Made by a program: the position numbers and the translations under genes. A stretch of 34,285 nucleotides of DNA, from positions 1-34,285 of the forward strand of contig DAOWGM010000011.1 in assembly GCA_030637515.1 (NCBI GenBank). Reading direction: 5' to 3'. The stretch is from Bacteroidales bacterium (GTDB taxonomy: Bacteria; Bacteroidota; Bacteroidia; Bacteroidales; UBA12077). How positions within the stretch are numbered: position 1 is the stretch's first letter; every line of letters begins with the position of its first letter. Positions 2,319 to 31,179 of the stretch are shown piece after piece. The notes beneath the pieces were generated by a model, which did no database searches, was not told the origin of the DNA, and saw nothing but the letters and a program-made list of their open reading frames with translations.

Positions 2319-3637
2319 GGCTCATTTTTTAAAATTCTATCATTAAGTAGCTTTAGTACTTTTATTTTATCCTTTATATTCACAGTAAAAGAGATATTAA
2401 TATTACTTGCACCAAAAGAAATTAAGTTAATAGGAATAGGTTCTATTGCATTAAATATTTTAGAAACTATTGCTGTTTTGTTTTTTTCAAAGTTTCCAAC
2501 AAGGCAAACAATACTTTGGTTTCTTTCTATGGACACATCGCCAATATTGCTTAATTCTGATTCTATTTTTAAAAGATGCCGAGTATTATCAATAGTCATA
2601 GAGACTGAGATTTCTGAAGTAGTAACCATATCTACAGATGTTTGATGTTTTTCAAATACATTAAATATTTTTCTTAGAACTCCATATGCTTGTACCATTT
2701 TTGCTGATCTTACTTTTATAGTTGTAATCTGGTCTTTAGCAGAAATTCCTTTAATTCCGGAAGCTTTTGTAAATTCAGAAATATATGTTCCGGGAAACAT
2801 TGGATTAAAAGTGTTTTTTAAAATCACAGGGATATTGGTTTTTAAAACAGGTATAATACTTAAAGGATGTAATATTTTAGCTCCAAAATATGCTAACTCA
2901 GAGGCTTCGTTATAGGATAAATGACTAATGGGATTGGTATTGTGAATACATGTAGGATCGTTATTACGTAATCCATCAATATCTGTCCAGATTTCAATTT
3001 TCTTTGCTTTTAAAACTGATCCAATAATGGTTGCTGTATAATCGCTGCTTCCTCGACCAAGATTATCAGTAATATTATTATGGTTATTACAAATAAATCC
3101 ATTAGTAATAAACATGTTACAGTCCTGATGTTTTTCTATTTCTTTATTTAGACATGACCTTATATGCTTGTAATCAGGTTCACCGTCCTTGTTTGTTTTC
3201 ATAAATTTTAATGCAGGAATATAAGCAACATCAATATTCTGTTCAAGAAAGTATAAATAAATAATCATTGCAGATAACAATTCACCTTGAGCAAGAATCT
3301 CTTTTTCGATTTTATCAGAAAGCTTAATGTTGATTGATTTATTCAAAAATTTAATTGCAGAATTAACTTTACTAAATGCAATTATTTTGAAATTTGTGCT
3401 TGAAATAAGGTTGTTAATTATATCGATATGAATTTCTTCAATTAACCGTATAATCTTTTCTGATTTCACATAATTTTTATCTTGTATTTGCTGAACAAAA
3501 ACCGAAAGCAGATTTGTTACACCTGATATTGCAGAGAAAGCTATTATTTTGTTCTTTTTGTTATTAACAATATTTGTTACTTTTTTTATAAGATTTGCAT
3601 CGCGAATTGATGTGCCACCAAACTTTAATATTTCCAT
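2300..3637 (-). CDS. lysC: aspartokinase (monofunctional, lysine-sensitive type)
   Basis: Phosphorylates L-aspartate, the entry step to lysine/DAP, threonine and methionine. At 445 residues it is close to E. coli LysC. The N-terminal KFGGTS nucleotide-binding motif, the central NLGRGSSDYTAT segment and the following WTDIDGL..NDPT segment mark the amino-acid kinase domain. The C-terminal ~150 residues (from about 300) look like two ACT domains, consistent with feedback inhibition. No homoserine dehydrogenase domain is attached. First gene of a lysC-lysA operon, divergent from the ACT-regulator candidate at 3754; a TATATTTG box lies about 20 bp upstream of the start. Allosteric lysine control is inferred from the family. 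Confidence 0.94.
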   Translation of the reverse strand: MEILKFGGTSIRDANLIKKVTNIVNNKKNKIIAFSAISGVTNLLSVFVQQIQDKNYVKSEKIIRLIEEIHIDIINNLISSTNFKIIAFSKVNSAIKFLNKSINIKLSDKIEKEILAQGELLSAMIIYLYFLEQNIDVAYIPALKFMKTNKDGEPDYKHIRSCLNKEIEKHQDCNMFITNGFICNNHNNITDNLGRGSSDYTATIIGSVLKAKKIEIWTDIDGLRNNDPTCIHNTNPISHLSYNEASELAYFGAKILHPLSIIPVLKTNIPVILKNTFNPMFPGTYISEFTKASGIKGISAKDQITTIKVRSAKMVQAYGVLRKIFNVFEKHQTSVDMVTTSEISVSMTIDNTRHLLKIESELSNIGDVSIERNQSIVCLVGNFEKNKTAIVSKIFNAIEPIPINLISFGASNINISFTVNIKDKIKVLKLLNDRILKNEPCLTLN

Positions 3638-3653
3638 TTTTTAACTTTTTAGA

Positions 3654-3674
3654 CAAATATACTTTTGAAAAAGT
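3654..3674 (-). promoter_or_regulatory. candidate lysC-lysA promoter -7 box with adjacent inverted repeat
   Basis: On the minus strand, TATATTTG (3661-3654) matches the Bacteroidota -7 consensus TAnnTTTG exactly and lies about 16-23 bp before the lysC ATG. Overlapping it by one base and running upstream is the perfect inverted repeat ACTTTT-GA-AAAAGT (3661-3674), suitably placed for an operator. The -33 element is poor, only a T-rich stretch. Confidence 0.45.
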
Positions 3675-3719
3675 GATGAGTAGAAAAAGACACATAAATT
3701 AGTCACAAAAACAACAAAA

Positions 3720-3735
3720 TGTTATATATTTAACA
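3720..3735. promoter_or_regulatory. inverted repeat TGTTA-N6-TAACA in the lysC/ACT-regulator divergent region
   Basis: TGTTA (3720-3724), TATATT spacer, TAACA (3731-3735) form a 16-bp dyad, 18 bp before the start of the 3754 gene. It is centrally placed to affect the rightward gene, and possibly both directions. Its use as an operator is inferred from position only; AT-rich DNA yields such dyads by chance. Confidence 0.3.
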
Positions 3736-3753
3736 AAAAGTATAAAAAATCAC

Positions 3754-4410
3754 ATGATAACAATAGCTCAAGCAGTAAAGATGGTTTTAAATAATAAACC
3801 ATTTATTTTAGAAGCAATACAGGATGATATTATTAATTACTCATCATTAGCTTCCTTTATTAACAAGGAAGTTGAAAGTATAGCAGGAAAGACAGTAAAT
3901 AATAGTGCTATAGTAATGGCTTTGCGTAGAATTAATCCCGTAGAATTAAAGAAGGTTAGCAGCAAGCTTGATAATTTAATAAAAAATTTAGGAGATATAA
4001 CAGTACGATCAAACCTAGTTGATTATACATTTAGAAATTCAGAGTCATTATTAAATAAACAACAGAAATTACTTTCGGAGTTTAAGGGAGAGACAGATTT
4101 ATTTTTCACTATATCTCAAGGTGTTTATGAAACTACTTTTGTAATAAGCGATAAGTTTAAAGAAGGTATACCTGAATTATTTGATGGAGAAAAATTAATT
4201 TCCTTTTCTTATGGATTATCTTCAATATCCATAAAATTGCCCAAAGAAAATACGGAACAACCTGGCTTGTATTATTTTATTTTCAGGAAACTTGCATGGG
4301 ATGGAATAAATGTTTTAGAAGTTGTTTCTACATCTAATGAATTTACGATAATACTGAAAGATCAAGATATTGATAAAGCATTTTCAGTAATAAAAAAGCT
4401 TAAAAATTAA
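3754..4410 (+). CDS. putative ACT-domain regulator of amino-acid metabolism (COG2150-like)
   Basis: A 218-residue protein without signal peptide or membrane helices. The N-terminal half has the pattern VNYSSLASFI..EV......N-SAIVMALRR (about 28-65; the exact start is IINYSSLASFI), which resembles the winged-helix-like N-terminus of the COG2150 family ('predicted regulator of amino acid metabolism, contains ACT domain'). The C-terminal part (about 165-218) has an ACT-like beta-alpha-beta pattern: PGLYYFIFRKLAWDGINVLE, then a strand ending FTIILKD and a last helix IDKAFSVIKKL. Divergent from lysC-lysA across 116 bp, which suggests it senses lysine or another amino acid and may control that operon. 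The family assignment is from remembered motifs, not a search. A small-molecule-binding role is more secure than DNA binding. Confidence 0.6.
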   Translation: MITIAQAVKMVLNNKPFILEAIQDDIINYSSLASFINKEVESIAGKTVNNSAIVMALRRINPVELKKVSSKLDNLIKNLGDITVRSNLVDYTFRNSESLLNKQQKLLSEFKGETDLFFTISQGVYETTFVISDKFKEGIPELFDGEKLISFSYGLSSISIKLPKENTEQPGLYYFIFRKLAWDGINVLEVVSTSNEFTIILKDQDIDKAFSVIKKLKN

Positions 4411-4883
4411 CTTTCTCTGATTAGTTAACATTTGTTAATTCTAAAAATTAAACTATTTACTTTCTTTGTTTTAAATCTATAATTCAATAATAAGCTAAAA
4501 AAAGAGCATATTCATTAAACCAAAGAAGTAATTTTTCATCTAAATCTTTCAGATATCGATTAATTTTGTAATTACGTATAATTATGACTTTAAATAACAA
4601 TTATATGTTTTAGAATTGTATTAATTATGGTATTATTGCGTTTTTTAAAATTGTTCATGATAAGGATTTTATGAAAAGATAATTTTTATCATACACATTT
4701 AGTTCATAAGTGATTAGTTTTACATTTTAAATTGTCCGGTTTTCATTTATTAATGTTACAAAACTAGACACAAAAATATCGCGAGCTATTATTAAAGTGT
4801 ACATATATAGATGTTTGTGTGTTTGGTATTAATATTGAAATTTTAGTATAAAAAGATTGTTATTTAAAAAATCACCTTAAATT
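4411..4883. other. gene-free AT-rich intergenic region
   Basis: About 470 bp with no convincing ORF on either strand, no tRNA-like clover leaf and no strong terminator after the 3754 gene. A weak dyad ATGATAA/TTATCAT (4657-4663 / 4686-4692) is present. Near the right end a weak promoter-like pair faces the outer-membrane cluster. Confidence 0.6.
4822..4854 (+). promoter_or_regulatory. weak candidate promoter of the outer-membrane cluster
   Basis: TTTG at 4822-4825 is followed after 21 bp by TATAAAAA (from 4847), about 30 bp before the ATG of the first cluster gene. The spacing resembles Bacteroidota TTTG-N19..21-TAnnTTTG, but the -7 box lacks the TTTG half. Confidence 0.25.
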
Positions 4884-5567
4884 ATGAGAATAGTACCAAT
4901 TGTTTTATTGCTATTTGTTTTTTCGAAAATAATGGCACAAAAAGAAATAGATAATACAACTTCAGATTATAAAGATTTACTTTATGGAGTAGTTTATGAG
5001 ACAGAATACTATAAATCAGGCCAACACCCGTTCTTTTTGGATAATAATTTCTTTAATAGTACTGTAGTATTTAAGAATAATACTTATGAAAATGTAAAAC
5101 TGAAATATGATTTATATAATCAGGATTTAATACTATTTCAGGATTTGTATCAAAACCAGCCACGATTTATAAAATTGAATACTTTTTTTATTGATAGATT
5201 CGCTTTAACTACGGATAATGGTACAGAATATATTTTTGCTTCACTCAAAGAAATTCCTGATTTAAACAAGAGATTTAAATATTTTGAGATTAAGTATGAA
5301 AACGAATTGATATTTGTAATAGGAAGAGATAAAGTTTTGCAGAGAAATACAATGAATAATTGGGAGAATAATTTTCTGGAAAATCAAAGATATTATTTAA
5401 TAAAGGATAAGAAAGTTTTATTAATTAGAGGAAAAGGTGATCTGTATAAGGCTCTAAAGGATAGAAAAAAAGAAATCAAACAATATGTAAAACAAAATAA
5501 GCTCAAGATAAGCTTAACAGATATTGAATCAATTAGTAAATTGTTAAAATTTTACGAAGAACTATAA
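4884..5567 (+). CDS. secreted protein of unknown function, first gene of TonB/DUF4249 cluster
   Basis: Family not recognised. The 227-residue product starts with a signal peptide (MRIVPIVLLLFVFSKIMAQ, cleavage probably after AQ or just before it) with no lipobox cysteine, so it is predicted periplasmic or outer-membrane-associated. The mature part is rich in aromatic residues and beta-prone up to about residue 165, then changes to a basic, charged helical tail (KDRKKEIKQYVKQNKLK). The gene ends 30 bp before the TonB-dependent receptor, so co-transcription is likely and it may be an accessory subunit of that system. Low G+C matches its neighbours and there is no sign of disruption. Confidence 0.7.
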   Translation: MRIVPIVLLLFVFSKIMAQKEIDNTTSDYKDLLYGVVYETEYYKSGQHPFFLDNNFFNSTVVFKNNTYENVKLKYDLYNQDLILFQDLYQNQPRFIKLNTFFIDRFALTTDNGTEYIFASLKEIPDLNKRFKYFEIKYENELIFVIGRDKVLQRNTMNNWENNFLENQRYYLIKDKKVLLIRGKGDLYKALKDRKKEIKQYVKQNKLKISLTDIESISKLLKFYEEL

Positions 5568-5597
5568 ATTAATAAAACATAGAATAAAAATAATGTT

Positions 5598-8324
5598 ATG
5601 ATTAAAAAGTATATATACCTGTTCCTTATACTGCTTCAGTTTACAAATACTAATTCTTACTCACAAACAAAGACAGAACTTAAAGAAAAGAATCTTTCTA
5701 TTATCTCTGAAATTGAGAAAAAGTTTAATGTAAGTTTTTATTATGAAGAATTCTGGTTGGAAAATAGCAAACTAAATTATTTTACATTAGATCTTAGTTT
5801 AAAAGAAACGCTTGAAAGTTCTTTTAAAAATAGTTCTTTGAAATACTTTCTTTATCAGGATAAGTATGTTATTCTAACATATTTAGAAAACCTTGATTTG
5901 TCAAATGGAATGATTTCTTTCGATAATAACGTAGATGCTGAGGTTGAATATACAATATCTGATAATGATATTCTGTTAGAAGAATTGAAAAGAGAAGAAT
6001 CTCGAATTTTTAGAATTGGAGCTGCAAATGGGGGAAGCGGAAGAGTGCTCTTGACAGGAAATATAGCTGAAGTATATTCAGGAATGCAAATCGAAGGTGT
6101 TGCTGTAATTGCTGATGATGGAAAAATAGGAACTACAACTGATAGGGACGGGAACTATAAAATTGTTTTATCAAAAGGCTATCATGTAATAAATTATCAA
6201 CATGTTGCAATGGTTCCTGCTAAAAGACAAGTTGAATTATATTCTTCAGGCAGAATTAATGTGAAATTGATGCAAAAGGTTACTGAGCTGGGAGAAGTTA
6301 GAGTTCTTGCAGAAGATGAAAGAAAAGAACGTGAAGTAATAGGTTTCGAGGCCTTAAAAGCAAAAGAGTTTTCGGAACTTCCTTCATTTATGGGAGAAGT
6401 TGACATTATTAAACATTCGCTTTTATTGCCGGGGATTCAATCAGCTGGTGAGGGAGATATGTCTTTTAGTGTTAGGGGAGGAAAAGGTGATCAGAACCTA
6501 ATTTTATTAGAGGGAATGCACACATATTCTTATTCTCACTTTTTTGGATTTTTCCCAAGTATTAATCCTAATACAATAAATAAAGCAAATCTTTATAAAG
6601 CAAGTCTTCCTGTAGAATTTGGTAATAGAATATCTTCAGTTTATGATATAATATTGAAAAATGGTGATTTTAAAAAACTTAATATCGATGGTGGAGTTAG
6701 TCCAATTACAGCTAATGTTGCTATTGACGGACCGATTATTAAAGACAAGCTTAGCTTTTCAATTGGAGGGAGAGGAACATACTCAAATTGGGTAATTAAT
6801 AGCATTGATGTACAGGAACTACAGCGCAGTAAAGTTGATTTTTACGATTATCAGGCAAAGATTAATTACAAAATAAATGAAAATTCTTCTTTATCTGCAT
6901 TCTATTATAATAGCTACGATTATTTTTCACTGCATACCGACACCTCATTTTATTTTAAAAATCAAATTGGATCTTTAATATGGGATAATGTAATAAATGA
7001 TAAACTAACTGTTTCAACTATTCTGGGTTATACAAAATATGCAAATGAAAATACAGACGAAGCTCGTGAAGATTTAGCAACGAAAAAAGAACAGGTAATT
7101 ACTGATTATAAAATTAATACTAAATTTGATTATCAATTAACATCAAAACATGAAATTTCACCCGGGTTTGAATTGATTTACACACAGTTAAAGCCATGGA
7201 GTTTAACACCGCTAAGTAATGCTTCTACAATTAGTCCGATAGATTATCAAGCCGAAAATGCATATACAGGGGCTTTGTATTTCAATGACCGAATTGACTT
7301 AACTAATTCATTTTCAGTAGACTTAGGTGTAAGGTATGCTTTTTTTTATTTAACAGGACCATACGAAGAATATCTGTATGAAGATGATATTCTTTCAGAG
7401 GTAAACATTATGGATACTGCAATTTATTCGAATGGAGATAAAGTGTATTTTGATTCTGGTCTTGAGTATAGAATTTCAGGAACATATAAACTGAATGGAG
7501 CACAAAATTTAAATTTCTGCTATAACAGGAACAGACAATACATTCATACATTAACTAATACTCAAGGAGCTACTCCTGTTGATTCTTGGCAGTTAAGCAA
7601 CAAATATATAGAACCTCAGATCGCAGATCATTTTTCGATTGGTTATAATGCAGATCTAAGATATCGTGATTTGTTCCTAAATGTTGATGCTTATTATAAA
7701 GATATTAAAAACATAAAAGATTTTATTAATGGAAGTGATTTTGAGTTTAATTCTCATCCTGAAACTGAAATTGTGAATGCGAAGGGAAAGTCATATGGTT
7801 TAGAATTCATGCTAAAAAAAGACAGAGGTAGATTGTCTGGCTGGCTGTCATACACATATTCCCGCACTTTAATAAAATCTAAAAGTGATATAGCCCGTAA
7901 AAATATTAATAATGGAGAATGGTATCCGGCAAGTAATGATAAACCACATAATGTTTCTGCTGTAATAAATCTGGAACCTACCAGGAGGTTGGTTGTTTCC
8001 AATGTATTTAATTATAGTACAGGAACTCCCATAACTCTACCTGTTAGTATGATAAAAATTAACGACACTTATTCTATTATATATTCAGAGCGTAACGAAT
8101 ATAGAATGCCAGATTATTTCAGATGGGATTTATCTTTATCATTTAAAGGAAGTTTAAAAAAGAAGAAAGTTAGAAGCACTTGGACATTATCTGTGTATAA
8201 TGTAACTGGAAGAAAGAATGCATATTCAATTTATTTTAAGAATCAGGATAATAATATTCAGGGTTATAAATTATCCATTTTCGGAGAACCTATACCAACT
8301 TTAACCTATAAATTTAATTTCTAA
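5598..8324 (+). CDS. TonB-dependent outer-membrane receptor with STN-like and carboxypeptidase-regulatory N-terminal domains
   Basis: A 908-residue outer-membrane protein. A signal peptide (about 1-22, ending NTNSYSQ) is followed by an STN-like domain (about 33-98: EKKFNVSFYYEE ... LKETLESSF). Next is a CarboxypepD_reg-like beta sandwich (about 150-230: GVAVIADDGKIGTTTDRDGN), a plug domain (about 250-355, with FSVRGGKGDQNLILLEGM), and a long barrel region with alternating aromatic strands ending in the terminal phenylalanine ...LTYKFNF. It should import or handle a substrate using TonB energy. No FecI/FecR-type sigma/anti-sigma pair is adjacent, although the STN-like domain is often linked to such signalling. 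The next lipoprotein gene starts 3 bp after the stop. The absence of SusD, and the plug plus DUF4249 neighbours, argue against a simple glycan PUL. Confidence 0.9.
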   Translation: MIKKYIYLFLILLQFTNTNSYSQTKTELKEKNLSIISEIEKKFNVSFYYEEFWLENSKLNYFTLDLSLKETLESSFKNSSLKYFLYQDKYVILTYLENLDLSNGMISFDNNVDAEVEYTISDNDILLEELKREESRIFRIGAANGGSGRVLLTGNIAEVYSGMQIEGVAVIADDGKIGTTTDRDGNYKIVLSKGYHVINYQHVAMVPAKRQVELYSSGRINVKLMQKVTELGEVRVLAEDERKEREVIGFEALKAKEFSELPSFMGEVDIIKHSLLLPGIQSAGEGDMSFSVRGGKGDQNLILLEGMHTYSYSHFFGFFPSINPNTINKANLYKASLPVEFGNRISSVYDIILKNGDFKKLNIDGGVSPITANVAIDGPIIKDKLSFSIGGRGTYSNWVINSIDVQELQRSKVDFYDYQAKINYKINENSSLSAFYYNSYDYFSLHTDTSFYFKNQIGSLIWDNVINDKLTVSTILGYTKYANENTDEAREDLATKKEQVITDYKINTKFDYQLTSKHEISPGFELIYTQLKPWSLTPLSNASTISPIDYQAENAYTGALYFNDRIDLTNSFSVDLGVRYAFFYLTGPYEEYLYEDDILSEVNIMDTAIYSNGDKVYFDSGLEYRISGTYKLNGAQNLNFCYNRNRQYIHTLTNTQGATPVDSWQLSNKYIEPQIADHFSIGYNADLRYRDLFLNVDAYYKDIKNIKDFINGSDFEFNSHPETEIVNAKGKSYGLEFMLKKDRGRLSGWLSYTYSRTLIKSKSDIARKNINNGEWYPASNDKPHNVSAVINLEPTRRLVVSNVFNYSTGTPITLPVSMIKINDTYSIIYSERNEYRMPDYFRWDLSLSFKGSLKKKKVRSTWTLSVYNVTGRKNAYSIYFKNQDNNIQGYKLSIFGEPIPTLTYKFNF

Positions 8325-8327
8325 TAA

Positions 8328-9440
8328 TTGAGAAAAAGTTTATTCATATTATTTGTTTTTTGTTTGTTTATACTTTCATGTACAGAAGAATATTCATATC
8401 ATGCAGATAATTATATAAATGAACTTGTTGTACAAGGACTAATTTCGGATATTTCAGAAGATTGCGAAGTGAGATTAGTAAGATCATCCCGCTATAACGA
8501 TTATGAAGTTACTGATGAATCAAATGCGATTGTATATGTAACAGATAACAATGGAGAAATAATTCCTTTTACTGAGAAGGAAGCAGGAGTTTACATACCT
8601 GTTGATGAAAACTTTTTAGGAATTTTAGGCAATGACTATTATTTGACGGTTGAAACTGTTGAAGGAACTGAGTATGTTTCAGATATTGTTACTTTAAATA
8701 AAGTTCCTCAAATAGATTCTGTTTATTCTGTTTATAAAGAGATTTATTCTTTTGAAAAGAAAAAATATATTAAAGGAATTGACGTATGCATCGATTTTTC
8801 TTGGGATGAAGGAAAAGACTATTTTTTGCGATGGGATTATATTGAAACAATTAAGATATGGCCAAGATGGGAAGCTATAAATATTGAAGCTCCATATGCT
8901 CCTTGTTGGCAGGAGAAGAACAGCAGTAAAGTTATTACTTTCGACACTAAAGAGGTCCTGTCAAATTCAGTTAAACAATTTACTGTAATACATCTTAGTG
9001 AATATGATTATCAACCATATTACGGATATAGTGTTTTAATTCGACAAAGCTCAATAGATAAAAAAGTATATGATTTCTGGCAAATGGTAAAAGATAATTC
9101 AGAAGAAAACGGGAGTTTATTCGATAATATTCCATATTCTGCTATTGGAAATATGGAATGTAATACAGATGAAGATAAAAGAGTGTTTGGTTATTTTAGT
9201 GCATCCTCAGTGGCTAAAAGAAGGACATATTTAAAAGCACCTATTTTTAAGATACCTTTTATGGATATAAATGAGGGCTGTATAGCCACTAGTGTTCTTC
9301 CAAGTGAATTGAATTCATGGTTGTTAAATAATGCATATTTTTTATCACCATACACATACACATTAAGCAGAAGATGTGTTGATTGTGAATATTACCATAA
9401 TTCAATAAGAGAAAAACCCGATTTTTGGGATTATGATTAA
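8328..9440 (+). CDS. DUF4249-type lipoprotein, paralogue 1
   Basis: A 370-residue predicted lipoprotein with signal sequence and lipobox FILSC (Cys18). The start is TTG at 8328: the in-frame codon just before it is TAA, and no ATG occurs until far into the protein, so only TTG preserves the signal peptide. The mature protein carries family hallmarks: a beta-rich N-terminal half (VVQGLISD ... NAIVYVTDNNGE), a central RWDYIETI and PYAPCWQ, EYDYQPYYGYSVLIRQ, and a C-terminal CVDCEYY ... KPDFWDY. DUF4249 proteins commonly sit beside TonB-dependent receptors in Bacteroidota; their function is unknown. The gene starts 3 bp after the receptor stop and is followed after 3 bp by a paralogue, so it is part of one transcript. 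Family call from remembered features. Confidence 0.82.
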   Translation: MRKSLFILFVFCLFILSCTEEYSYHADNYINELVVQGLISDISEDCEVRLVRSSRYNDYEVTDESNAIVYVTDNNGEIIPFTEKEAGVYIPVDENFLGILGNDYYLTVETVEGTEYVSDIVTLNKVPQIDSVYSVYKEIYSFEKKKYIKGIDVCIDFSWDEGKDYFLRWDYIETIKIWPRWEAINIEAPYAPCWQEKNSSKVITFDTKEVLSNSVKQFTVIHLSEYDYQPYYGYSVLIRQSSIDKKVYDFWQMVKDNSEENGSLFDNIPYSAIGNMECNTDEDKRVFGYFSASSVAKRRTYLKAPIFKIPFMDINEGCIATSVLPSELNSWLLNNAYFLSPYTYTLSRRCVDCEYYHNSIREKPDFWDYD

Positions 9441-9443
9441 AAA

Positions 9444-10589
9444 ATGAAGATCTTAAAATTACATAGAATCAGAATTTTAAACGCAGTATTCTTTTTAACA
9501 CTTGTAGTCTGTAACTCCTGTATTGAAGAATACAATTATCATTATGATTCTTACGATAATATTTTGGCTGTACAGGGCGAGCTTGCAGCAGATTATGAAA
9601 ATACTGAAGTAAAATTATCAAGATCGGTTAATATATCTGGTAAAGAAGCATCTGATGAAACTAATGCACTGGTTTATGTAACAGATAAAAAGGGGAGTAT
9701 TATATCGTTTATAGAGATTGAACCTGGATTATATAAACCAGAAGATATTAACTTTTCAGGAGAAATTAATAATGAATATTTTTTAACTATTGAAACGTCG
9801 GATGGATCTGAATATGTTTCAGATATTGTAACTTGTTATGATGTCCCAGAAATAGATTCATTATATTATATTTATCATGAAATATACTCATTTGAGGAGG
9901 AGAGGTATGTAAAAGGAATTGACATTTGTATTGACACACATTGGGATGGGTCGGATGATTATTATTTGCGATGGGATTATATTGAAACAATTCAATTCTG
10001 GCAGAAATGGGAAAGCGTTCAAGCCGAAAATGCTCCTTATGGTCCTTGTTGGCAAACAAAGTATTGCACTAATGTTTTAATTGAAGAAACCAAAAGATAT
10101 GATAAGAATGAGTTAAATCAGTATCCTGTAATACGTTTAGATGAATATGATTATCAACCTCAATATAGATATCATGTACTTATCAGACAGCAAACAATAA
10201 ACAAATCGGTTTATGATTTCTGGGAAATGGTAAGGGAGAACAATGAAGACATGGGTAACATATTTGATAAAATCCCATATTCGCCATTGGGAAATATAAC
10301 ATGTTCCTCAGATCCTGAAAAAAAAGTGTTAGGATACTTTAATGCAGGAAGTATAACAACAAAAAATATATACATTAAGGCACCTGTATTTGGTATTAAT
10401 TTCGCCAATATTAATGATCATTGTCGAACTATAAATAGCCCTATTGGAAGACAGATTGAAGAAAAATATGTATATATAATTACATCCAACGAAAGTGGTA
10501 TTTTTTATACAAAAAAAAGAGAATGCGTTGATTGTGCATATTATAAAAACTCAACCCGGGAAAAACCCGATTTTTGGGAATATAAATAA
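9444..10589 (+). CDS. DUF4249-type lipoprotein, paralogue 2
   Basis: A 381-residue paralogue of the preceding gene, starting 3 bp after its stop at an ATG. The signal region is longer and has a weak lipobox, VVCNSC (Cys26), so lipidation is likely but not certain. It shares RWDYIETI, PYGPCWQ, EYDYQPQYRYHVLIRQ, YDFWEMV, and C-terminal CVDCAYY ... REKPDFWEY with the flanking copies. It is closest to paralogue 3, with which it shares the run EIYSFEEERYVKG and IQFW/IKFWQKWES. Extra spacing (92 bp) to the next copy, containing a 20-codon ORF, breaks the otherwise tight packing. Confidence 0.8.
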   Translation: MKILKLHRIRILNAVFFLTLVVCNSCIEEYNYHYDSYDNILAVQGELAADYENTEVKLSRSVNISGKEASDETNALVYVTDKKGSIISFIEIEPGLYKPEDINFSGEINNEYFLTIETSDGSEYVSDIVTCYDVPEIDSLYYIYHEIYSFEEERYVKGIDICIDTHWDGSDDYYLRWDYIETIQFWQKWESVQAENAPYGPCWQTKYCTNVLIEETKRYDKNELNQYPVIRLDEYDYQPQYRYHVLIRQQTINKSVYDFWEMVRENNEDMGNIFDKIPYSPLGNITCSSDPEKKVLGYFNAGSITTKNIYIKAPVFGINFANINDHCRTINSPIGRQIEEKYVYIITSNESGIFYTKKRECVDCAYYKNSTREKPDFWEYK

Positions 10590-10611
10590 AGATTTTAAAA
10601 GGAAAAAATAT

Positions 10612-10674
10612 ATGAAAATACTTCAAAAGAAAAAAGAGAATGCAGGTAATATAACTAAATTTGGGGCAAAATAA
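10612..10674 (+). CDS. possible 20-codon ORF between DUF4249 copies 2 and 3
   Basis: ATG at 10612 preceded by AAAAGGAAAAAATAT, a purine-rich stretch that could serve as ribosome binding site; the ORF runs MKILQKKKENAGNITKFGAK. Its first residues resemble the start of paralogue 2 (MKILKLHR), so it may be a relic of the duplication junction and not a functional peptide. It ends 7 bp before the paralogue 3 ATG. Confidence 0.2.
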   Translation: MKILQKKKENAGNITKFGAK

Positions 10675-10681
10675 ATTGACT

Positions 10682-11803
10682 ATGAAAAACATAAAAATAA
10701 CACTTATTATTTTAACCTTACTATTTAGTATTTCATGTATTGAAGAATATGATTATAGTTCTGAAGCTTATGATAGAGTACTAGCTATTCAGGGAATAAT
10801 AACAGATAGATATGAAAGCACTGAAGTAATCTTATCAAAATCGCTTCGCCTATCAGAAGAAGGCTTTATAATCGAATCAGATGCAATTGTGCATGTAACG
10901 GATAGTAAGGGTAATATAATTTCTTTCACAGAAACAGAACCTGGTATATATAAACCAATTGACATAAATTTCTCTGGAGTTTTAAATGAAGAATATTTTT
11001 TAACTGTTCAAACAAAAGACGGATCTGAATATATTTCAGATTTAGTAACCTTAAACGAGGTTCCTGAAATTGATTCTCTTTATCATATTTATAATGAGAT
11101 ATATTCGTTTGAAGAGGAGAGATATGTAAAAGGGCTTGACATATGCATTGATGCACATTGGGACGAGGGAAAGGAGTATTTTTTACGCTGGGACTATATT
11201 GAAACAATTAAATTTTGGCAGAAATGGGAAAGCAATGATGTTCAAAATGCCCCGTATGCAGAATGTTGGCAAACAAAATACAGTGATAATGTTTTAGTAG
11301 AAGAAACATCTTTATTCGAGAATAATCGACTTGAAAAATACACAGTTGTACATTTTGATGAATATGATTATGAACCTCATTACGGATATAGTATTCTTAT
11401 TCGCCAGCATGCAATAAATGAATCTGTTTATAAATTCTGGGAAATGGTAAAAGAAAACAGTGAAGATAACGGTGATATTTTTGCAAATGTACCTTATTCA
11501 CCTGTAAGTAATATAACCTGTTGTTCGGATGCAAATAAAAAGGTTTTTGGTTATTTCGATGCAAGTTGTTCTTCGGAAAAAAGGTTTTATTTTAAAGCAC
11601 CTGTATATAATATTCCTTTTGCTGACATTAATGATCATTGTGTAGCAACAGCTGTAAATTATGAAGTTTGGCGAGATCTTGATAATGTATACGTATTAAG
11701 TTCAGAAGATAATGTAGTTTATACAAAACAAAGAGAGTGTGTTGACTGTGCTGCTTATGAAAGGTCAAACAGAGAAAAGCCTGATTTTTGGGATTATAAT
11801 TAG
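10682..11803 (+). CDS. DUF4249-type lipoprotein, paralogue 3
   Basis: A 373-residue lipoprotein from the ATG at 10682; a longer frame from TTG 10661 would add only MGQNKLT ahead of a complete signal peptide, so ATG is preferred. Lipobox FSISC (Cys19), immediately followed by IEEYDYS as in the other copies. The same core appears: EIYSFEEERYVKG, LRWDYIETIKFWQKWES, PYAECWQTKY, EYDYEPHYGYSILIRQ, FWEMVKENSEDNG, and C-terminal CVDCAAY ... REKPDFWDY. The three copies keep their cysteines and aromatic core but differ most in the N-terminal third, which suggests a conserved fold with diverged ligand or partner contacts. 51 bp separates it from the plug protein start. Confidence 0.82.
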   Translation: MKNIKITLIILTLLFSISCIEEYDYSSEAYDRVLAIQGIITDRYESTEVILSKSLRLSEEGFIIESDAIVHVTDSKGNIISFTETEPGIYKPIDINFSGVLNEEYFLTVQTKDGSEYISDLVTLNEVPEIDSLYHIYNEIYSFEEERYVKGLDICIDAHWDEGKEYFLRWDYIETIKFWQKWESNDVQNAPYAECWQTKYSDNVLVEETSLFENNRLEKYTVVHFDEYDYEPHYGYSILIRQHAINESVYKFWEMVKENSEDNGDIFANVPYSPVSNITCCSDANKKVFGYFDASCSSEKRFYFKAPVYNIPFADINDHCVATAVNYEVWRDLDNVYVLSSEDNVVYTKQRECVDCAAYERSNREKPDFWDYN

Positions 11804-11854
11804 CAAAAATATTATTTGTATTTAAATAGATTTAAAAATATTAATTTGAGAACT

Positions 11855-14095
11855 ATGAAAAGAAAGTTTCAATTATCCTTTTTTGTTTTATTCATGTTGT
11901 TTAATGCAAACGCTTTTGCAGATTTTAGAGATTATGAAGCTGATGAAGTAATCTGTAATGATAAAATAATTATGAATTTTGATAGGAATGAGTATGTTTC
12001 AGGTGAAAATATATTTTTCAAAATAAATTGCGTTAATTATATTAATAATCACATTGCTACTGAAAGTAAATTTGCTTATGTTGAGTTAATTAATCCTGCT
12101 GGATATTCAATTGAGAGAAAGAAAATAAGTTTGGATTCTGGAAGTGGGTTTGGTTCTGTTTCTATACCCGACTCAGCATCGACTGGAATGTATAATATTA
12201 TTGCTTATACAAATTGTATGAAAAGCTTAGGATCAAATGCAATTTATCAGGGTAGCATTTTGATTTATAACCCGGAAAGAGCTAAATTCTATAAGACTGA
12301 TATTGAGTCTTCTAAAAAGAATATTCAGGTTAGTTATGAAAATAATGCAATTGTTAAAGGTTTAGGAAATACAATTTATTATAAGTTAATAGGAGATATT
12401 AAGGATACTATTACTGTTACTATTAATGATGAATCTGGTTATATATTAAATAGTGCTAAAAGCACTAGAGCCGTTGGAAGTATAACTTTTATTCCCGTTG
12501 AATCAACATTAGTATTTAAATTAATTACTAAAGACACTGTGTTTTCTGTTCCTATCCCAGAAATAGAGGAAGAGGGTGTCAATGTTAAGCTTTTAAGCGA
12601 TTCCAAAACAGAAATAAAATTACAAATTCAGTCTACGAATCTACACAGAAAATTATCATATGATTACAAATTATATGATGAAAAAGGAGAGTTACTTAAA
12701 AATATTTTTCTATCAAAAGAAAAGGAAATATTTGAAATTGATCATTCTAAATTCTTCAATGGAAACAATAAGCTGGTTTTGAAAAATAACAATAACGTTG
12801 TTATCTGGGAAAGGCCAATTTATATTGAGAAAGAAAATAACCCAATATTAATAAGTAATTTAAAACAAGAAGTTGAAGAGCGAGAAAAAGTAACTGTTTC
12901 ATTAATTCTTGATAATAAAATAGAAGAAAAAAAATACGCAGATATTTCTTTGTCTGTAAGGAAGATTAATCATTCCATAAAAGATCAGCGTGAACAACAA
13001 ATTAATCAAGCAGAACTAAGTAATTTGAATGTATTGTTTATTCAAGAACCAGAGGTTGGAAAGAGTTTGGGAGAAAAAATATATTTGAATGAACATAAGG
13101 GTTCATTATTATCTGGAAGGGTATTGAATTCAGACGGAACACCATTAATCGATAATAATATGTTTCTGTGTTTCCCAGATTCTTTTGTCAATACTCAGGT
13201 GTGTAAATCAAATGATAAAGGTGAATTCCATTTTTATATAAATAATGATAAAATTCAAAGAGATATTGTAATAAATGCAAATAATGGAAATAAAAATTTA
13301 ACGATTCTGATTAATTCTAACTTCTTAAATAATTATTCATTTGTTGCTAAAAAGAAGTTAGATATAAATGATGAATACCAAGAGTATTTAAAAAAGTTAT
13401 ATTATAATTTAAGAATTCAAAATGTATATAATCAAGATTATTTAAAGGTGGAACTAAATAAAAACGCATATAATTATACTGGTAATTTTTATGAAGAACC
13501 TGATGAAGAGTATTATTTTGATGATTTTGTTAGCTTGGATTCTATTCATGAATATTTTTATGAACTTATTAAAGGAGTTAGGGTTACAGAAATAGATAAT
13601 AAACCAGAATTTAGAGTTGTTAGTGAAAAGACACATGTTGAGTTTCAGGGAAATCCAGCAGTTTTTGTTGACGGCGTTTATATTGATAATGTAAAAACTA
13701 TTTTAGATATTAGTCCTGAATTGTGCTATAAAATTGAAGTTGTTCGATCACCTATTATTTTAAATTCAAAAATAGCTTATGGTCTAGTTAGTCTCATTAC
13801 AAAAAGTAGTAAGCTGAAAAATATTGACTTGTCCTCAAATTCCACAAGAATTGAGTATTCAGTATATGATCCTTCTGAGAAATTTGTTTTTGAAGGTTTA
13901 AATAATGACATTCCCGATTTTAGAAATACACTTTACTGGAATCCTGAAATAATTTTAAATAATGGGGAAGAAGAAAAAATTGAGTTTTATACTGGTGACG
14001 ATAATTCATGGTATGAATTGAATATAAGAGGAATTACTAACACAGGACAAGAAGTTTCTGAGAGCAAAATTTTTAAAGTAGGTAATCCTCAGTAA
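11855..14095 (+). CDS. secreted MG2-like / carboxypeptidase-regulatory / TonB plug-domain protein without barrel
   Basis: From the ATG at 11855 the protein has 746 residues; a TTG at 11816 in the same frame would put 13 residues before a clean signal peptide (MKRKFQLSFFVLFMLFNANAFA), so ATG is chosen. The N-terminal domain (about 30-125) has the macroglobulin-like pattern FDRNEYVSGENIFFKI ... VELINPAG ... GMYNIIAYTN. A CarboxypepD_reg-like domain (about 418-475) begins GSLLSGRVLNSDGTPL. A plug-like domain (about 580-675) contains AVFVDGVYIDNVKTI ... CYKIEVVRSPI ... YGLVSLITK. The C-terminus lacks a 22-strand barrel. Such proteins recur near DUF4249 genes and TonB receptors in Bacteroidota; a role as a periplasmic or surface partner of the receptor is inferred. 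Last gene of the cluster, ending at a hairpin. Confidence 0.75.
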   Translation: MKRKFQLSFFVLFMLFNANAFADFRDYEADEVICNDKIIMNFDRNEYVSGENIFFKINCVNYINNHIATESKFAYVELINPAGYSIERKKISLDSGSGFGSVSIPDSASTGMYNIIAYTNCMKSLGSNAIYQGSILIYNPERAKFYKTDIESSKKNIQVSYENNAIVKGLGNTIYYKLIGDIKDTITVTINDESGYILNSAKSTRAVGSITFIPVESTLVFKLITKDTVFSVPIPEIEEEGVNVKLLSDSKTEIKLQIQSTNLHRKLSYDYKLYDEKGELLKNIFLSKEKEIFEIDHSKFFNGNNKLVLKNNNNVVIWERPIYIEKENNPILISNLKQEVEEREKVTVSLILDNKIEEKKYADISLSVRKINHSIKDQREQQINQAELSNLNVLFIQEPEVGKSLGEKIYLNEHKGSLLSGRVLNSDGTPLIDNNMFLCFPDSFVNTQVCKSNDKGEFHFYINNDKIQRDIVINANNGNKNLTILINSNFLNNYSFVAKKKLDINDEYQEYLKKLYYNLRIQNVYNQDYLKVELNKNAYNYTGNFYEEPDEEYYFDDFVSLDSIHEYFYELIKGVRVTEIDNKPEFRVVSEKTHVEFQGNPAVFVDGVYIDNVKTILDISPELCYKIEVVRSPIILNSKIAYGLVSLITKSSKLKNIDLSSNSTRIEYSVYDPSEKFVFEGLNNDIPDFRNTLYWNPEIILNNGEEEKIEFYTGDDNSWYELNIRGITNTGQEVSESKIFKVGNPQ

Positions 14096-14102
14096 TATAA
14101 GC

Positions 14103-14134
14103 AATCCGGTTAATTAAATTTAACCGGATTTTTT
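14103..14134. terminator. bidirectional intrinsic terminator between plug protein and MATE gene
   Basis: AATCCGGTTAA (14103-14113), 6-nt loop, TTAACCGGATT (14120-14130) form an 11-bp perfect stem followed by a T run to 14134. The convergent MATE stop codon (14133-14135) overlaps the T run. It clearly serves the rightward cluster and can also act leftward, though with a weaker T tract. Confidence 0.9.
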
Positions 14135-15557
14135 ATATCTCTTTTAACTTCCAATTACCTTTTTTAAACAACCACATTGCAATTAGTGCCATAACAGATT
14201 CTGCTACAATAATGGCTATATAAACACCATTTTCATTTATCCCAATATGTTTTGCTAAGAAATATGCCAGAGGAATCTCAATAATCCAGAAACAAATTAT
14301 ATTTATAATTGTTGGTGTTTTAGTATCTCCGGCACCATTAAAGGCTTGTACCATAACCATTCCCATTGCATAAAAGATAAATCCAATGCTTATAATTCTT
14401 AAACCTATTGCACCAGAATTAACAACATCTACATTTTTAATGAAAATTCGAATAAAGAAATGAGGTTCAATAATAAAAACAATAGAAAAAATTCCTAATA
14501 GAAACATATTAATGTATCCTGTTGTCCATACAGCACGCTCTGCTCTTTCAGGCTTTTTTGCACCAAGGTTTTGACCAACTAGTGTTGCTGTTGCATTGCT
14601 TATTCCCCACGATGGTAGCAAAACAAAAATTATAATTCGTATTGCTATTGTATATCCAGCTAATGCAGCACTACCAAAAATAGCAATAATTCTAACCATG
14701 CCGATCCAACTTGAAGTTGCAATTATTGATTGTCCAATTCCTCCCATGGAAATTTGAATAAGATTGGTCATAACCTTAAGATGAACTCGTAATGCTTTTT
14801 TATATAACTTAACCCTACCATTTCCTTTTAATAAGATATGAAATTGATATATAACAGCAATACCTCTACCAGTTGCTGTTGCTATAGCTGCTCCTTTTAT
14901 TCCTAAAGCCGGAATTGGTCCTAAACCAAAAATGAAAATGGGATCAAGAATAATATTTACAATGTTAGCGAGGTATAATATTCGCATTGATAAAGCAGCA
15001 TCGCCTGAACTTCTGAATACGGCATTTATGATGAACAACAGCATAATAATTATATTGCTGCCAAGAGCGATAGTAGGATACCAATATCCGTTTTCTATAA
15101 TATTAGCATTGGCTCCCATTAATCTTAACAAATCTTTGGCGAATATCATTCCAGGTATTCCAATTAGTATTGAAATAAAAGCTCCTGCAATAATTGCCTG
15201 AACAGCAGCTACAGATGCCCGATAAGGTTTTTTTTCACCAATTCGTCTCGAAACAAGAGCTGTAGTAGCCATACTTAATCCCATTCCAATGGAATATATA
15301 ATTGTGAGTAACGATTCTGTTATTCCAACAGTTGCAATAGCATCAGGTCCAAGTTTTGATACGAAAAAAATGTCAGCTACGGCAAATATTGATTCCATGA
15401 TCATTTCTAAAACCATTGGAATAGATAACAATAAGATAGCTTTGCTTAATTTGATTTTTGTAAAATCTTTTTCAGTTCCGGATATAGATTCTTTAATATC
15501 TAACCACAAAGATTTTAAATTGAATTTTTTTATATGATGAATGAAATTTGAAAGCAT
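14133..15557 (-). CDS. MATE-family multidrug/metabolite exporter
   Basis: A 474-residue inner-membrane protein. After a short basic N-terminus (about 1-40) come about 12 hydrophobic helices in two related halves, starting LSIPMVLEMIMESIFAVADIFF, a classic MATE TM1. MATE-like motifs include GxGLSMATTALVSRRIGE between TM2 and TM3 and its second-half counterpart GISNATATLVGQNLGAKKPERAE. It exports cationic drugs or metabolites by Na+ or H+ antiport; the substrate cannot be told from sequence. It is monocistronic: a good promoter lies 136-168 bp upstream, leaving a roughly 130-nt leader with a short ORF and hairpin that may regulate expression. It converges on the plug-protein gene. Confidence 0.92.
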   Translation of the reverse strand: MLSNFIHHIKKFNLKSLWLDIKESISGTEKDFTKIKLSKAILLLSIPMVLEMIMESIFAVADIFFVSKLGPDAIATVGITESLLTIIYSIGMGLSMATTALVSRRIGEKKPYRASVAAVQAIIAGAFISILIGIPGMIFAKDLLRLMGANANIIENGYWYPTIALGSNIIIMLLFIINAVFRSSGDAALSMRILYLANIVNIILDPIFIFGLGPIPALGIKGAAIATATGRGIAVIYQFHILLKGNGRVKLYKKALRVHLKVMTNLIQISMGGIGQSIIATSSWIGMVRIIAIFGSAALAGYTIAIRIIIFVLLPSWGISNATATLVGQNLGAKKPERAERAVWTTGYINMFLLGIFSIVFIIEPHFFIRIFIKNVDVVNSGAIGLRIISIGFIFYAMGMVMVQAFNGAGDTKTPTIINIICFWIIEIPLAYFLAKHIGINENGVYIAIIVAESVMALIAMWLFKKGNWKLKEI

Positions 15558-15602
15558 GATGAAAATGTAAAACGATAAAACAATTAGTATAATTATGAAG
15601 GT

Positions 15603-15622
15603 TTAAAAGCGAGGGCTTTTAA
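15603..15622 (-). promoter_or_regulatory. hairpin in the MATE 5' leader
   Basis: TTAAAAGC-N4-GCTTTTAA is a perfect 8-bp dyad in the transcribed leader, 46-65 nt upstream of the MATE ATG and 8 nt after the stop codon of the 13-codon leader ORF. No T run follows it in the minus direction, so it looks more like a structural or attenuation element than a terminator. Confidence 0.5.
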
Positions 15623-15630
15623 GTTTTGAA

Positions 15631-15672
15631 TTATTCTACGACCGGAGCCGTAAATGGAGTTTTAATTTTCAT
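15631..15672 (-). CDS. possible 13-codon leader ORF upstream of MATE gene
   Basis: On the minus strand an ATG at 15672 opens MKIKTPFTAPVVE followed by TAA (15633-15631). It starts about 21-25 nt after the start site predicted from the TATCTTTG box, and lies in a locally G+C-richer patch. The stop codon is followed within 9 nt by a perfect hairpin, then the MATE start. The arrangement of promoter, short ORF, hairpin and exporter gene resembles translational or transcriptional attenuators of resistance genes. Whether it is translated is not known. Confidence 0.35.
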   Translation of the reverse strand: MKIKTPFTAPVVE

Positions 15673-15692
15673 TGGATTTTGTTTTATCAATG

Positions 15693-15725
15693 CAAAGATA
15701 GATAAAATAAGGCTTTATTACCAAA
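15693..15725 (-). promoter_or_regulatory. candidate promoter of MATE gene
   Basis: On the minus strand TTTG (15725-15722), 21 bp spacer, TATCTTTG (15700-15693) fit the Bacteroidota -33/-7 pattern, with an exact TAnnTTTG match. The expected start near 15686 leaves a leader of about 130 nt before the MATE ATG. Confidence 0.6.
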
Positions 15726-15753
15726 TGAGCAAAGAAATAAATTCGAAGAAAGT

Positions 15754-15782
15754 AAAAAGGGATCCTTTTTAGAACCCCTTTT
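15754..15782 (-). terminator. intrinsic terminator of the small acidic protein gene
   Basis: Reading leftward, AAAAGGGGTTCT (15782-15771), loop AAAA, AGGATCCCTTTT (15766-15755) pair as a 12-bp stem with two G-T wobbles and end in a T run. It lies 8 bp beyond the stop codon of the gene at 15790-16134. Confidence 0.85.
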
Positions 15783-15789
15783 AAATTAT

Positions 15790-16134
15790 TTATGCTTCGT
15801 AACTTTCGTCTTGTATATTTTCCACTTCATCAATATTATCATCGAGATATTTTTCACCTTCATCATTAACATCGTCTTCAAAATCATCACGAAGTTTTCC
15901 GTCCTCGCCATAATCATCATCTTCTTTAATAATATCTTGAGCTTCTTCTTCAGTCATCCTGATAAGATAATAAATCTCTTCAGTTTCGAACGGAAGTGCA
16001 GAAACAAACATCCCTTGCGCATTTGTAAAAGTAATCAGGTTATCTTCAAAGCCATCAGGATGCTCCACTTTTATACTATTCAAAGTATCTTCAGGAAGTT
16101 TTTCGTAATCAATTACAATTCGTTTCTTTGCCAC
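15790..16134 (-). CDS. conserved-looking small acidic cytoplasmic protein
   Basis: A 114-residue protein with no signal peptide or membrane helix. The first ~75 residues form a compact-looking domain (MAKKRIVIDYEKLPEDTLNSI, then ITFTNAQGMFVSALPFETEEIYYLIRMT), which I recall as typical of a conserved Bacteroidota hypothetical family of no known function. The last ~45 residues are a strongly acidic, probably disordered tail of Asp/Glu runs. It has its own good promoter and its own terminator, so it is a single-gene unit. The acidic tail could suggest a nucleic-acid mimic or a regulator, but nothing in the sequence proves this. The large antisense ORF over it is a shadow. Confidence 0.75.
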   Translation of the reverse strand: MAKKRIVIDYEKLPEDTLNSIKVEHPDGFEDNLITFTNAQGMFVSALPFETEEIYYLIRMTEEEAQDIIKEDDDYGEDGKLRDDFEDDVNDEGEKYLDDNIDEVENIQDESYEA

Positions 16135-16167
16135 TTTTATATATATTATATATTATGTTTTATGTCC

Positions 16168-16199
16168 GAAATATATTTAGAAAATCAAAATTGTCAAAA
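16168..16199 (-). promoter_or_regulatory. candidate promoter of the small acidic protein gene
   Basis: On the minus strand TTTTG (16199-16195), exactly 19 bp, TATATTTC (16175-16168): seven of eight matches to TAnnTTTG with the preferred spacing. It lies about 34 bp before the ATG. Confidence 0.6.
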
Positions 16200-16247
16200 C
16201 ACTTTTTAATTTTTTTACTAGATATATTGTCGATTGTACAAATAATT

Positions 16248-16282
16248 AAAGAGCTATGAAAATGTAAATTTCATAACTCTTT
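16248..16282 (-). terminator. hairpin terminator after the FtsX-type permease gene
   Basis: AAAGAG-C-TATGAAA (16248-16261), 7-nt loop, TTTCATA-A-CTCTTT (16269-16282): 13 paired positions with one C/A mismatch. It lies 61 bp past the permease stop (minus strand), with a partly T-rich 3' side (TTTAATTATTTG). Confidence 0.65.
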
Positions 16283-16342
16283 ATACATTATCTTTTAAGA
16301 AAAGTTTTATTAATTTAATAATTTATTTAACAAATTTGAACT

Positions 16343-31100: not shown

Positions 31101-31179
31101 GTGAGAAAGCAAGCTGACTAAGCATTAGAAATAATACAGCCAAAATGCTTACTCTTTTTTTGAGTAATGGGTTTTTCAT
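28111..31179 (-). CDS. secreted endonuclease I-family protein with FN3/GEVED repeats and type IX sorting domain
   Basis: A 1022-residue exported protein. Signal peptide 1-26 (...SQLAFSQ). The endonuclease I (EndA/Vvn-type, beta-beta-alpha metal finger) domain (about 30-255) has NCEHTIPQSFF (His101) and SDIHHLFPTYENWNSTRSNYPL. It degrades DNA/RNA outside the cell. An FN3 domain (about 260-345), an OB-like domain (about 353-446), then two FN3-GEVED units follow (FN3 ~453-540, GEVED ~545-682; FN3 ~690-778, GEVED ~783-922; both GEVEDs carry IWIDYN.DG.F and RMRVSMKY). A Por-type C-terminal sorting domain (about 945-1022: LYPNPANSY ... GIYFIMITN) sends it out through T9SS. Monocistronic, with terminators at both ends. 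Inverted repeat ACACG-N10-CGTGT lies 113 bp upstream. Confidence 0.93.
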   Translation of the reverse strand: MKNPLLKKRVSILAVLFLMLSQLAFSQEAPEDLSGEDLKSWLITNYYDGKHQTLGYSTARKYLYNYIDNENNVITCVYSGYEVNSTYGGTTTYPAPINCEHTIPQSFFNEADPMVSDIHHLFPTYENWNSTRSNYPLTEIDDNTTSKWMYLNQSQTTIPTSNIDLYSESASSVFEPREDHKGNAARAIFYFYTMYPTQAGDISQVGDIDIFYQWHLDDPVDAEEIERNSEIETYQGNRNPFIDYPELVARAWDLTPVNSAPSSPTLQLNAGETSISLSWNNVSDENGYKLYKSSGSEYSLSSDLAANTTSYTDNAVSENITYSYYILAYNDYGNSSNSNIVSGQLNSGNTGSGISVSEALAESIGTSVTVDGIITESYNGVYALIMKDINGSETIVVKLETDQRDEWSPENNSSAVGKTIEVVGVRDTYSSEQSIEYVTSITEIGGTTEDTEAPTVPSSLVSSGVTETSVSLSWAASTDNVGVTEYDIYRNGSLLSSSSNTTYSVTGLTASTAYAFYIKAKDAAENISGASNTINVTTSEIVTTYCSSQGNNSSYEWIANVEIGSYTNSSGAANYTDFTSETISLEKGSTVNISLTPGFSGSTYNEYWKIWIDYNADGDFEDSGELAFDAGSLSSTTVNGNISVLATAEGTTRMRVSMKYDGAQTACESFDYGEVEDYTVTFTDAVVDTEAPTIPTALAASNITTTSVTISWNASTDNVAVTEYEVYQDGSLIGNPTSTSYSVSGLSSFNQYAFTVKAKDAAGNTSALSNSLNVTTLDGQIAYCDSRGTNTSDEWINQVVIADLNNSSGDNSGYADFTNLTANIAANTSYDITLYTGYSGRAYKEVYSIWIDYNHDGVFDENTELIFSDDSRYTSLSGTFTVPDNAISGTTRMRVSMKYNKAATPCEVFEYGEVEDYSVNIINNKSFMVESQDNNVIVNDIKAKLYPNPANSYTILELIADDYTEISYKVVDIQGRIHIQKDNVQVNGYQEERIDISNLNTGIYFIMITNNEINENCKLVVE

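Follow-up and report, generated by a model that had tools for sequence, protein, structure and literature searches.

The DNA considered here is a 34,285-nucleotide stretch of a Bacteroidales genome (GCA_030637515.1, contig DAOWGM010000011.1, positions 1 to 34,285), which we call the window. At 4884-14095 it carries six plus-strand open reading frames (ORFs) that together probably encode an importer of the outer membrane: in order, a secreted protein (SEC), a TonB-dependent receptor (TBDR), three DUF4249 lipoproteins (D1, D2 and D3), presumed to be lids of the receptor, and a plug-like protein without a barrel (PLUG) (Table 1). The three lipoprotein copies share a conserved frame and differ in a cysteine-framed C-terminal segment. 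Each matches PF14054, the DUF4249 family, at 101-103 bits against a cut-off of 28.5 (E = 1.1e-28, 4.8e-29 and 3.2e-29 for D1, D2 and D3), and they are 52-59% identical pairwise. This bears out an earlier, sequence-only reading of the window, which had described six co-directional genes including three DUF4249 paralogs. Counted from the first possible starts, the gaps between the genes are 30, 3, 3, 71 and 12 bp. The last two become 92 and 51 bp if the likelier ATG starts of D3 and PLUG are used, and with the likelier D3 start the spacing of 3, 3 and 92 bp given in that reading is right. A terminator-like hairpin after the last gene supports a single cluster.

Table 1. Features of the cluster, in window coordinates
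Feature	Position	Strand	Basis or context
SEC, secreted protein, first module gene	4884..5567	+	ORF
TBDR, TonB-dependent receptor	5598..8324	+	Family matches
D1, DUF4249 lipoprotein copy 1, TTG start	8328..9440	+	PF14054
D2, DUF4249 lipoprotein copy 2	9444..10589	+	PF14054
D3, DUF4249 lipoprotein copy 3	10661..11803; likelier ATG start 10682	+	PF14054, AlphaFold2 pLDDT 91
PLUG, MG2-like, carboxypeptidase-regulatory-like and plug-like, without barrel	11816..14095; likelier ATG 11855	+	
Terminator-like hairpin, 11 pairs	14103..14130	both	Between PLUG and convergent MATE gene
D1 variable segment, conserved Cys to CxxC tail	9282..9374	+	
D2 variable segment	10425..10523	+	
D3 variable segment, ORF residues 328-359	11642..11737	+	

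We asked how widely this arrangement recurs by scanning genome contigs with a receptor alignment and comparing the best 80 of 587 confirmed candidate loci, which hold 88 receptor rows and, being the best of the candidates, favor relatives of the window's receptor. The loci come from Bacteroidales, Cytophagales, Chitinophagales, Sphingobacteriales and Flavobacteriales. The complete order SEC-TBDR-DUF4249(n)-PLUG is present in 66 of the 88 rows, so the predicted recurrence of the cluster in Bacteroidota holds. SEC lies directly upstream of the receptor in 77 rows, and DUF4249 lies downstream in 76, as it does in the window, followed by PLUG in 70. The sequence-only reading had thus named three of the recurring parts correctly (DUF4249, plug protein and receptor) but had omitted SEC. 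Median gaps are 2 bp between SEC and receptor, 2 bp between receptor and DUF4249, and 7 bp between DUF4249 and PLUG; the ranges are wide because the first possible start codon was used.

Among the 22 incomplete rows, six reach a contig end (L062, L110, L114, L122, L125 and L138), and six with neither SEC nor DUF4249 seem to be other receptors (L075, L081, L085, L087 and two in L101). The other ten are variants or cut: PLUG stands without a lid in L063, genes are split in L089, and L131 meets the locus edge; no lid lies downstream in L105, L108 and L109, with opposite-strand lids in L105 and L109; the lid of L140 is on the opposite strand; and SEC was not recognized in L132 and L135. An altered order occurs at L136:10001-18878, with PLUG ahead of three DUF4249 genes. 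Inspection of the flanks by eye gave no further conserved partner gene; the candidates that we rejected were genes shared through same-genus synteny, an MFS gene that stands at +1 in 5 of 80 loci, and a cluster of response regulators seen in 5 loci. A separate search of 39 genomes, the window's own included, identified 17 with near full-length long DUF4249, and all 17 have PLUG and SEC matches on the module contig. Genome G024, in which PLUG and SEC matches adjoin a partial lid match, was left out of the 17 and may possess a module whose lid has diverged. The module is common, not rare, and its interesting part is the lid arrays.

The sequence-only reading considered triplication of the lipoprotein to be unusual, a claim that the copy numbers do not support. 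The 66 complete modules were scored as holding one lid in 52 cases, two in 12 and three in 2; one locus counted with two (L083) is a single split gene, giving a corrected tally of 53 single-lid modules and 13 with two or three. In the window's genus (20 genomes including its own), 12 genomes have the long DUF4249 form, and 7 of these have at least three lids. Single copies occur in G003, G009, G013, G016 and G018, three copies in the window, G001, G002 and G012, at least three in G004, five in G017 and nine, the maximum, in G007. Arrays of 3, 5 or 9 lids come with a single gene each for receptor, SEC and PLUG. The largest array, at G007:C4:326993-337180 (L037, L038), has nine tandem DUF4249 genes between one receptor gene and one PLUG gene. 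In G004 the array and PLUG are on two different contigs. G017 also has three dispersed long DUF4249 genes (L040:8957-10090, L055:8626-9846 and L056:8940-10127), with no receptor, SEC or PLUG match in the stretches around them; those in L040 and L055 are close copies.

The copies in the window arose by duplication inside its own lineage. In a tree of 44 of 45 DUF4249 rows (one shorter than 240 aa was dropped; a fragment of a broken G007 copy and part of a second copy were retained), D1-D3 form a clade with support of 100/99, nested among the single-copy relatives G013 and G022. They are old, with dS of about 1.3, near saturation, and are intact, with whole-gene dN/dS of about 0.22-0.32. A quick tree of 133 proteins, built with variable columns removed, includes 27 loci with at least two rows, four of which (L081, L093, L131 and L137) are not tandem arrays. 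The 23 tandem loci comprise 14 clades with SH-aLRT of at least 81, one clade at 30 (L107), and eight that do not form clades; four of these eight hold a sister pair with at least 90. Because each of those 14 arrays forms a separate clade, lid duplication has happened many times over, though part of this pattern could be produced by concerted evolution.

We compared cysteines and variable regions in long DUF4249 proteins of at least 360 aa (133 rows, including seven of the nine G007 copies). Cys26, presumed to be lipidated, is aligned in all 133, and at least one acidic residue follows at positions +2 to +6 in 115. Acidic residues behind the lipidated cysteine are the surface-export signal of Bacteroidota lipoproteins, and the sequences in the window, CTEE in D1 and CIEE in D2 and D3, would fit this signal. 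A simple lipobox pattern was found in 72 of 100 DUF4249 proteins, and in 4 of 76 SEC and 8 of 78 PLUG proteins; as they mostly have no lipobox, SEC and PLUG are most likely periplasmic. The window's genome has six places with DUF4249, three of them D1-D3. The other three are receptor and short DUF4249 pairs (L057:2991-6093, L058:6218-9422 and L059:8970-12445), whose short forms have no C-terminal cysteine tail and no adjoining SEC or PLUG match.

Four further cysteines are nearly invariant: Cys202 is present in 133 of 133 proteins, and Cys327, Cys360 and Cys363 in 132 each, the exception for Cys363 ending at a contig edge. The sole protein without Cys327, L037_8991, also lacks Cys360. This joint loss, a single event, suggests that the two residues pair and close a loop, in which case a Cys202-Cys363 pair would follow. 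The stretch enclosed by Cys327 and Cys360, the variable segment, has 27-61 residues. To compare its divergence we used a window of about 32 residues and one pair per locus, with disjoint ortholog pairs that include array members; L061, on the same contig as L044, was excluded, and one of the 21 same-locus pairs, L137, is not a true tandem pair. The segment from Cys327 to the terminal CxxC ranks first in variability among windows in 18 of 21 same-locus pairs versus 15 of 28 ortholog pairs, and its divergence relative to the rest of the protein is 2.34 in same-locus pairs versus 1.69 in orthologs (p = 0.0035). An earlier comparison with overlapping pairs gave ratios of 3.24 (25 pairs) versus 2.00 (23 pairs; p = 0.0018). 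Among pairs under 25% divergence, segment divergence is 0.55 for same-locus copies (n = 12) versus 0.24 for orthologs (n = 5; p = 0.004). The youngest array pair, in L041, illustrates the pattern: its segments are 42% identical versus 89% elsewhere, with pS of 0.26 in the segment versus 0.23 in the rest, and pN of 0.41 versus 0.06. The receptor-less copies in L040 and L055 show no segment excess (84% identity there versus 81% elsewhere); this single pair thus points the way one would expect were the segment to act together with a receptor.

The receptor itself, of 908 aa, comprises an STN-like region, CarbopepD_reg_2, Plug and a presumed C-terminal barrel region. Its CarbopepD_reg_2 and Plug matches are both over cut-off (PF07715 at 24.8 bits against 23.9), and Plug is found at E <= 0.1 in all 17 aligned receptors, the window's included. 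The presumed barrel has no family match in the window's protein; PF00593 is found in 3 of the 17. The STN-like domain previously proposed for this receptor stands at the level of the family but not for the protein itself: Pfam STN matches 26 of 34 aligned N-termini at E <= 0.5 (best 2.7e-11), and the window's N-terminus has no match. A joint N-terminal profile matches the STN of the ferric-pseudobactin receptor (2a02, E = 5e-4) and of HasR (E = 0.003), consistent with a family-level STN.

The MG2/plug description of the last gene fares similarly. The MG2 match of the window's PLUG is weak (E = 6e-5, under cut-off); among 16 family members including it, MG2 is found at E <= 0.1 in 13, CarboxypepD_reg in 4, CarbopepD_reg_2 in 2 and Plug in 2, and a joint profile matches the SusC plug (E = 0.0018). 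A literature search for the MG2/plug combination gave nothing of use. SEC is a secreted protein of 227 aa without a lipobox, that matches no Pfam family above its cut-off and has no NCBIfam family either. Its AlphaFold2 model, from an alignment with 71 other rows, is confident (pLDDT 91); a fold search of the Protein Data Bank (PDB) gave no match at E <= 0.001 (best 0.14), and the best E of its sequence profile there was 0.035. SEC matches occur in 24 of the 39 genomes, some outside the module. SEC and PLUG are thus two unassigned families that are frequent partners of what would be a widespread importer. The AlphaFold2 model of D3 (77 other rows, pLDDT 91) consists mostly of beta-strands with an N-terminal helix in front. 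Foldseek returned 1544 PDB matches at E <= 10, ten of them at E <= 0.001. The best 50 of the 1544 are mainly Ig/FnIII-like, with TM-scores of 0.13-0.21, and an Ig-like make-up, of one or more domains, is therefore likely. No SusD or other known lid was among those 50. PDB searches with the DUF4249 profile and with the sequences of single cluster proteins gave no useful match.

These data lead us to a model, on which our judgment is evenly balanced, in which the cluster encodes a lidded TonB-dependent importer with alternative lids on one receptor. The TBDR would be the energized pore in the outer membrane. By analogy with BtuG and XusB, a DUF4249 lipoprotein on its outer face would catch the ligand and close over the pore. 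SEC and PLUG would act below it on the periplasmic side, where PLUG might serve as a dock or receiver. The variable segment might set what each lid catches or how the lid seats, and a single receptor would be served by one lid or another, with transport, ligand and lid exchange all part of the proposal. More tentatively, we suggest a possible general principle: one importer would have a library of interchangeable lids, in which repeated tandem duplication, up to nine copies, diversifies the segment from Cys327 to Cys360/Cys363, so that the range of ligands is widened by adding lids rather than receptors. The suggestion of a multi-ligand surface system in the sequence-only reading would fit the variable-segment data in part.

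Several observations weigh against this model. It is pairs under 25% divergence, five of them orthologous, that carry the contrast with orthologs; above that, p is 0.12 and 0.32. When the window's copies are divided into nine bins, the segment ranks as most variable in two of three pairs: its identity is 24% for D1-D2 and 38% for D2-D3, and 45% for D1-D3, where the first bin is lower (43%). Among nine tandem and four ortholog pairs, chosen from low-divergence pairs, segment pN/pS exceeds 1 in one of the nine tandem pairs, and not significantly (1.57, p = 0.16); we therefore rejected positive selection on the segment as a proven claim. Silent divergence in the segment is raised (p < 0.05) in five of nine tandem and two of four ortholog pairs, so much of the pattern could come from exchange, from weaker constraint, from flank conversion or from noise in the alignment. 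One of the nine G007 lid copies is frameshifted. Among the 22 genomes in which no long lid was counted, PLUG is found in 6 (G019, G021, G024, G028, G033 and G038) and SEC in 7 (G006, G008, G011, G019, G024, G028 and G037), which argues against a strict bond of the module. Finally, VKOR and DsbB had no match in the window's genome (91% complete); because of this, and because the cysteine loss is one event, a metal site or free thiols could take the place of the proposed cysteine pairs.

Some of these points are also what would be expected if redundant lids simply raise lid supply, and the C-terminal segment varies through weak constraint. This combination of dosage and drift is a possibility that we take seriously while thinking it improbable. 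It would account for the broken G007 copy, for segment pN/pS below 1 in eight of nine tandem pairs, and for the finding that the segment is often the most variable window in orthologs too. It does not readily explain why the flanking cysteines are retained in 132 of 133 proteins, why low-divergence copies at one locus differ more in the segment than orthologs do, or why the window's copies, despite their age, remain intact with low dN/dS.

Repeated local expansion and a hypervariable segment would also be expected if phages, predators or antibodies, rather than ligands, diversified the lids. We regard such surface evasion as unlikely. Between 4400 and 14200 there are only six inverted repeats, short and imperfect (20-31 nt, 72-90% complementary), so there is no obvious inversion switch, which is weak evidence against it. 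The sequence-only reading had also raised a multi-subunit complex, in which each receptor unit would carry all three lipoproteins simultaneously, much as glycan and B12 systems have extra surface lipoproteins. Tight gene order favors this, as does the precedent, in PMC10404256, for additional surface lipoproteins per receptor; it is nevertheless very improbable, since arrays of five and nine lids beside one receptor gene fit it poorly, and most complete modules have a single DUF4249. Equally doubtful is a mainly signaling role, in which an STN-bearing receptor would pass signals from the cell surface on to an anti-sigma factor: STN at family level is in its favor, but no sigma factor or FecR was found among the 20 other window ORFs scanned (FecR_C matches of this genome are on other contigs), and the sole sigma gene among relatives' flank clusters (ORF clusters of at least three loci, judged by eye from representatives) is primary-RpoD-like, at 4 loci. 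Overall, the interpretation offered by the sequence-only reading is partly supported.

Searches for transcription signals added little. There are 11 terminator-like sites in 3600-16400 versus 3.3 expected, two of them weak plus-strand sites within cluster genes, at 7565 and 9417. Promoter patterns were rejected as evidence of separate transcription: the Bacteroidota-type pattern TAnnTTTG occurs 46 times in the window versus 61 expected, a two-box pattern twice versus 4.1 expected and never within the cluster, and sigma-70-like sites 84 times versus 86 expected. One TAnnTTTG match lies at 10656, ahead of D3. Rfam and tRNA scans yielded nothing of use. Elsewhere in the window, 28111-31179 encodes a nuclease that is probably type IX-secreted, an Endonuclease I that carries fibronectin-III and GEVED domains plus a Por secretion tail. 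A 218 aa protein with a weak ACT-like end, encoded at 3754-4410, adjoins an ACT-domain amino acid kinase and a PLP-dependent decarboxylase, and is perhaps a regulator of an amino-acid pathway.

How does the cluster compare with known systems? The closest precedent is the pair BT2172/BT2173 of Bacteroides thetaiotaomicron, a TonB-dependent transporter and a DUF4249 protein proposed to function together (Price et al. preprint, as cited in PMC11003636); according to the citing paper, disruption of either has similar consequences. Because this pair is in print, the claim that the cluster is an undescribed system does not hold without qualification. The likeness lies in a receptor with an adjacent DUF4249 gene; the passages of PMC11003636 on the pair do not mention SEC, PLUG, STN, a C-terminal cysteine tail or tandem lids. 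BtuG (vitamin B12) and XusB (xenosiderophore) are described in PMC13142918 and PMC10404256 as surface lipoprotein lids of the receptors BtuB and XusA, and share with the cluster the combination of a TonB-dependent receptor and a surface lipoprotein lid, but no such lid was among the 50 of 1544 D3 fold matches listed. SusC-SusD resembles it in the CarboxypepD_reg and plug domains of the receptor and in the pedal-bin idea, but the window's lids have no SusD family match; this, and a TBDR score of 42.1 bits versus the SusC TIGR04056 cut-off of 368.25, led us to reject SusCD membership. In the literature searched, where the lid preprint was known only via PMC11003636, we did not find the four-family module, repeated lid amplification or the cysteine-framed variable segment in print. 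If lids are exchangeable on one receptor, receptor counts would underestimate the range of substances taken up by Bacteroidota, and a lid array could serve as a readout of the ligand repertoire. Judged from its sequences, the unit would be a known kind of importer, and these three features are what appears to be new.

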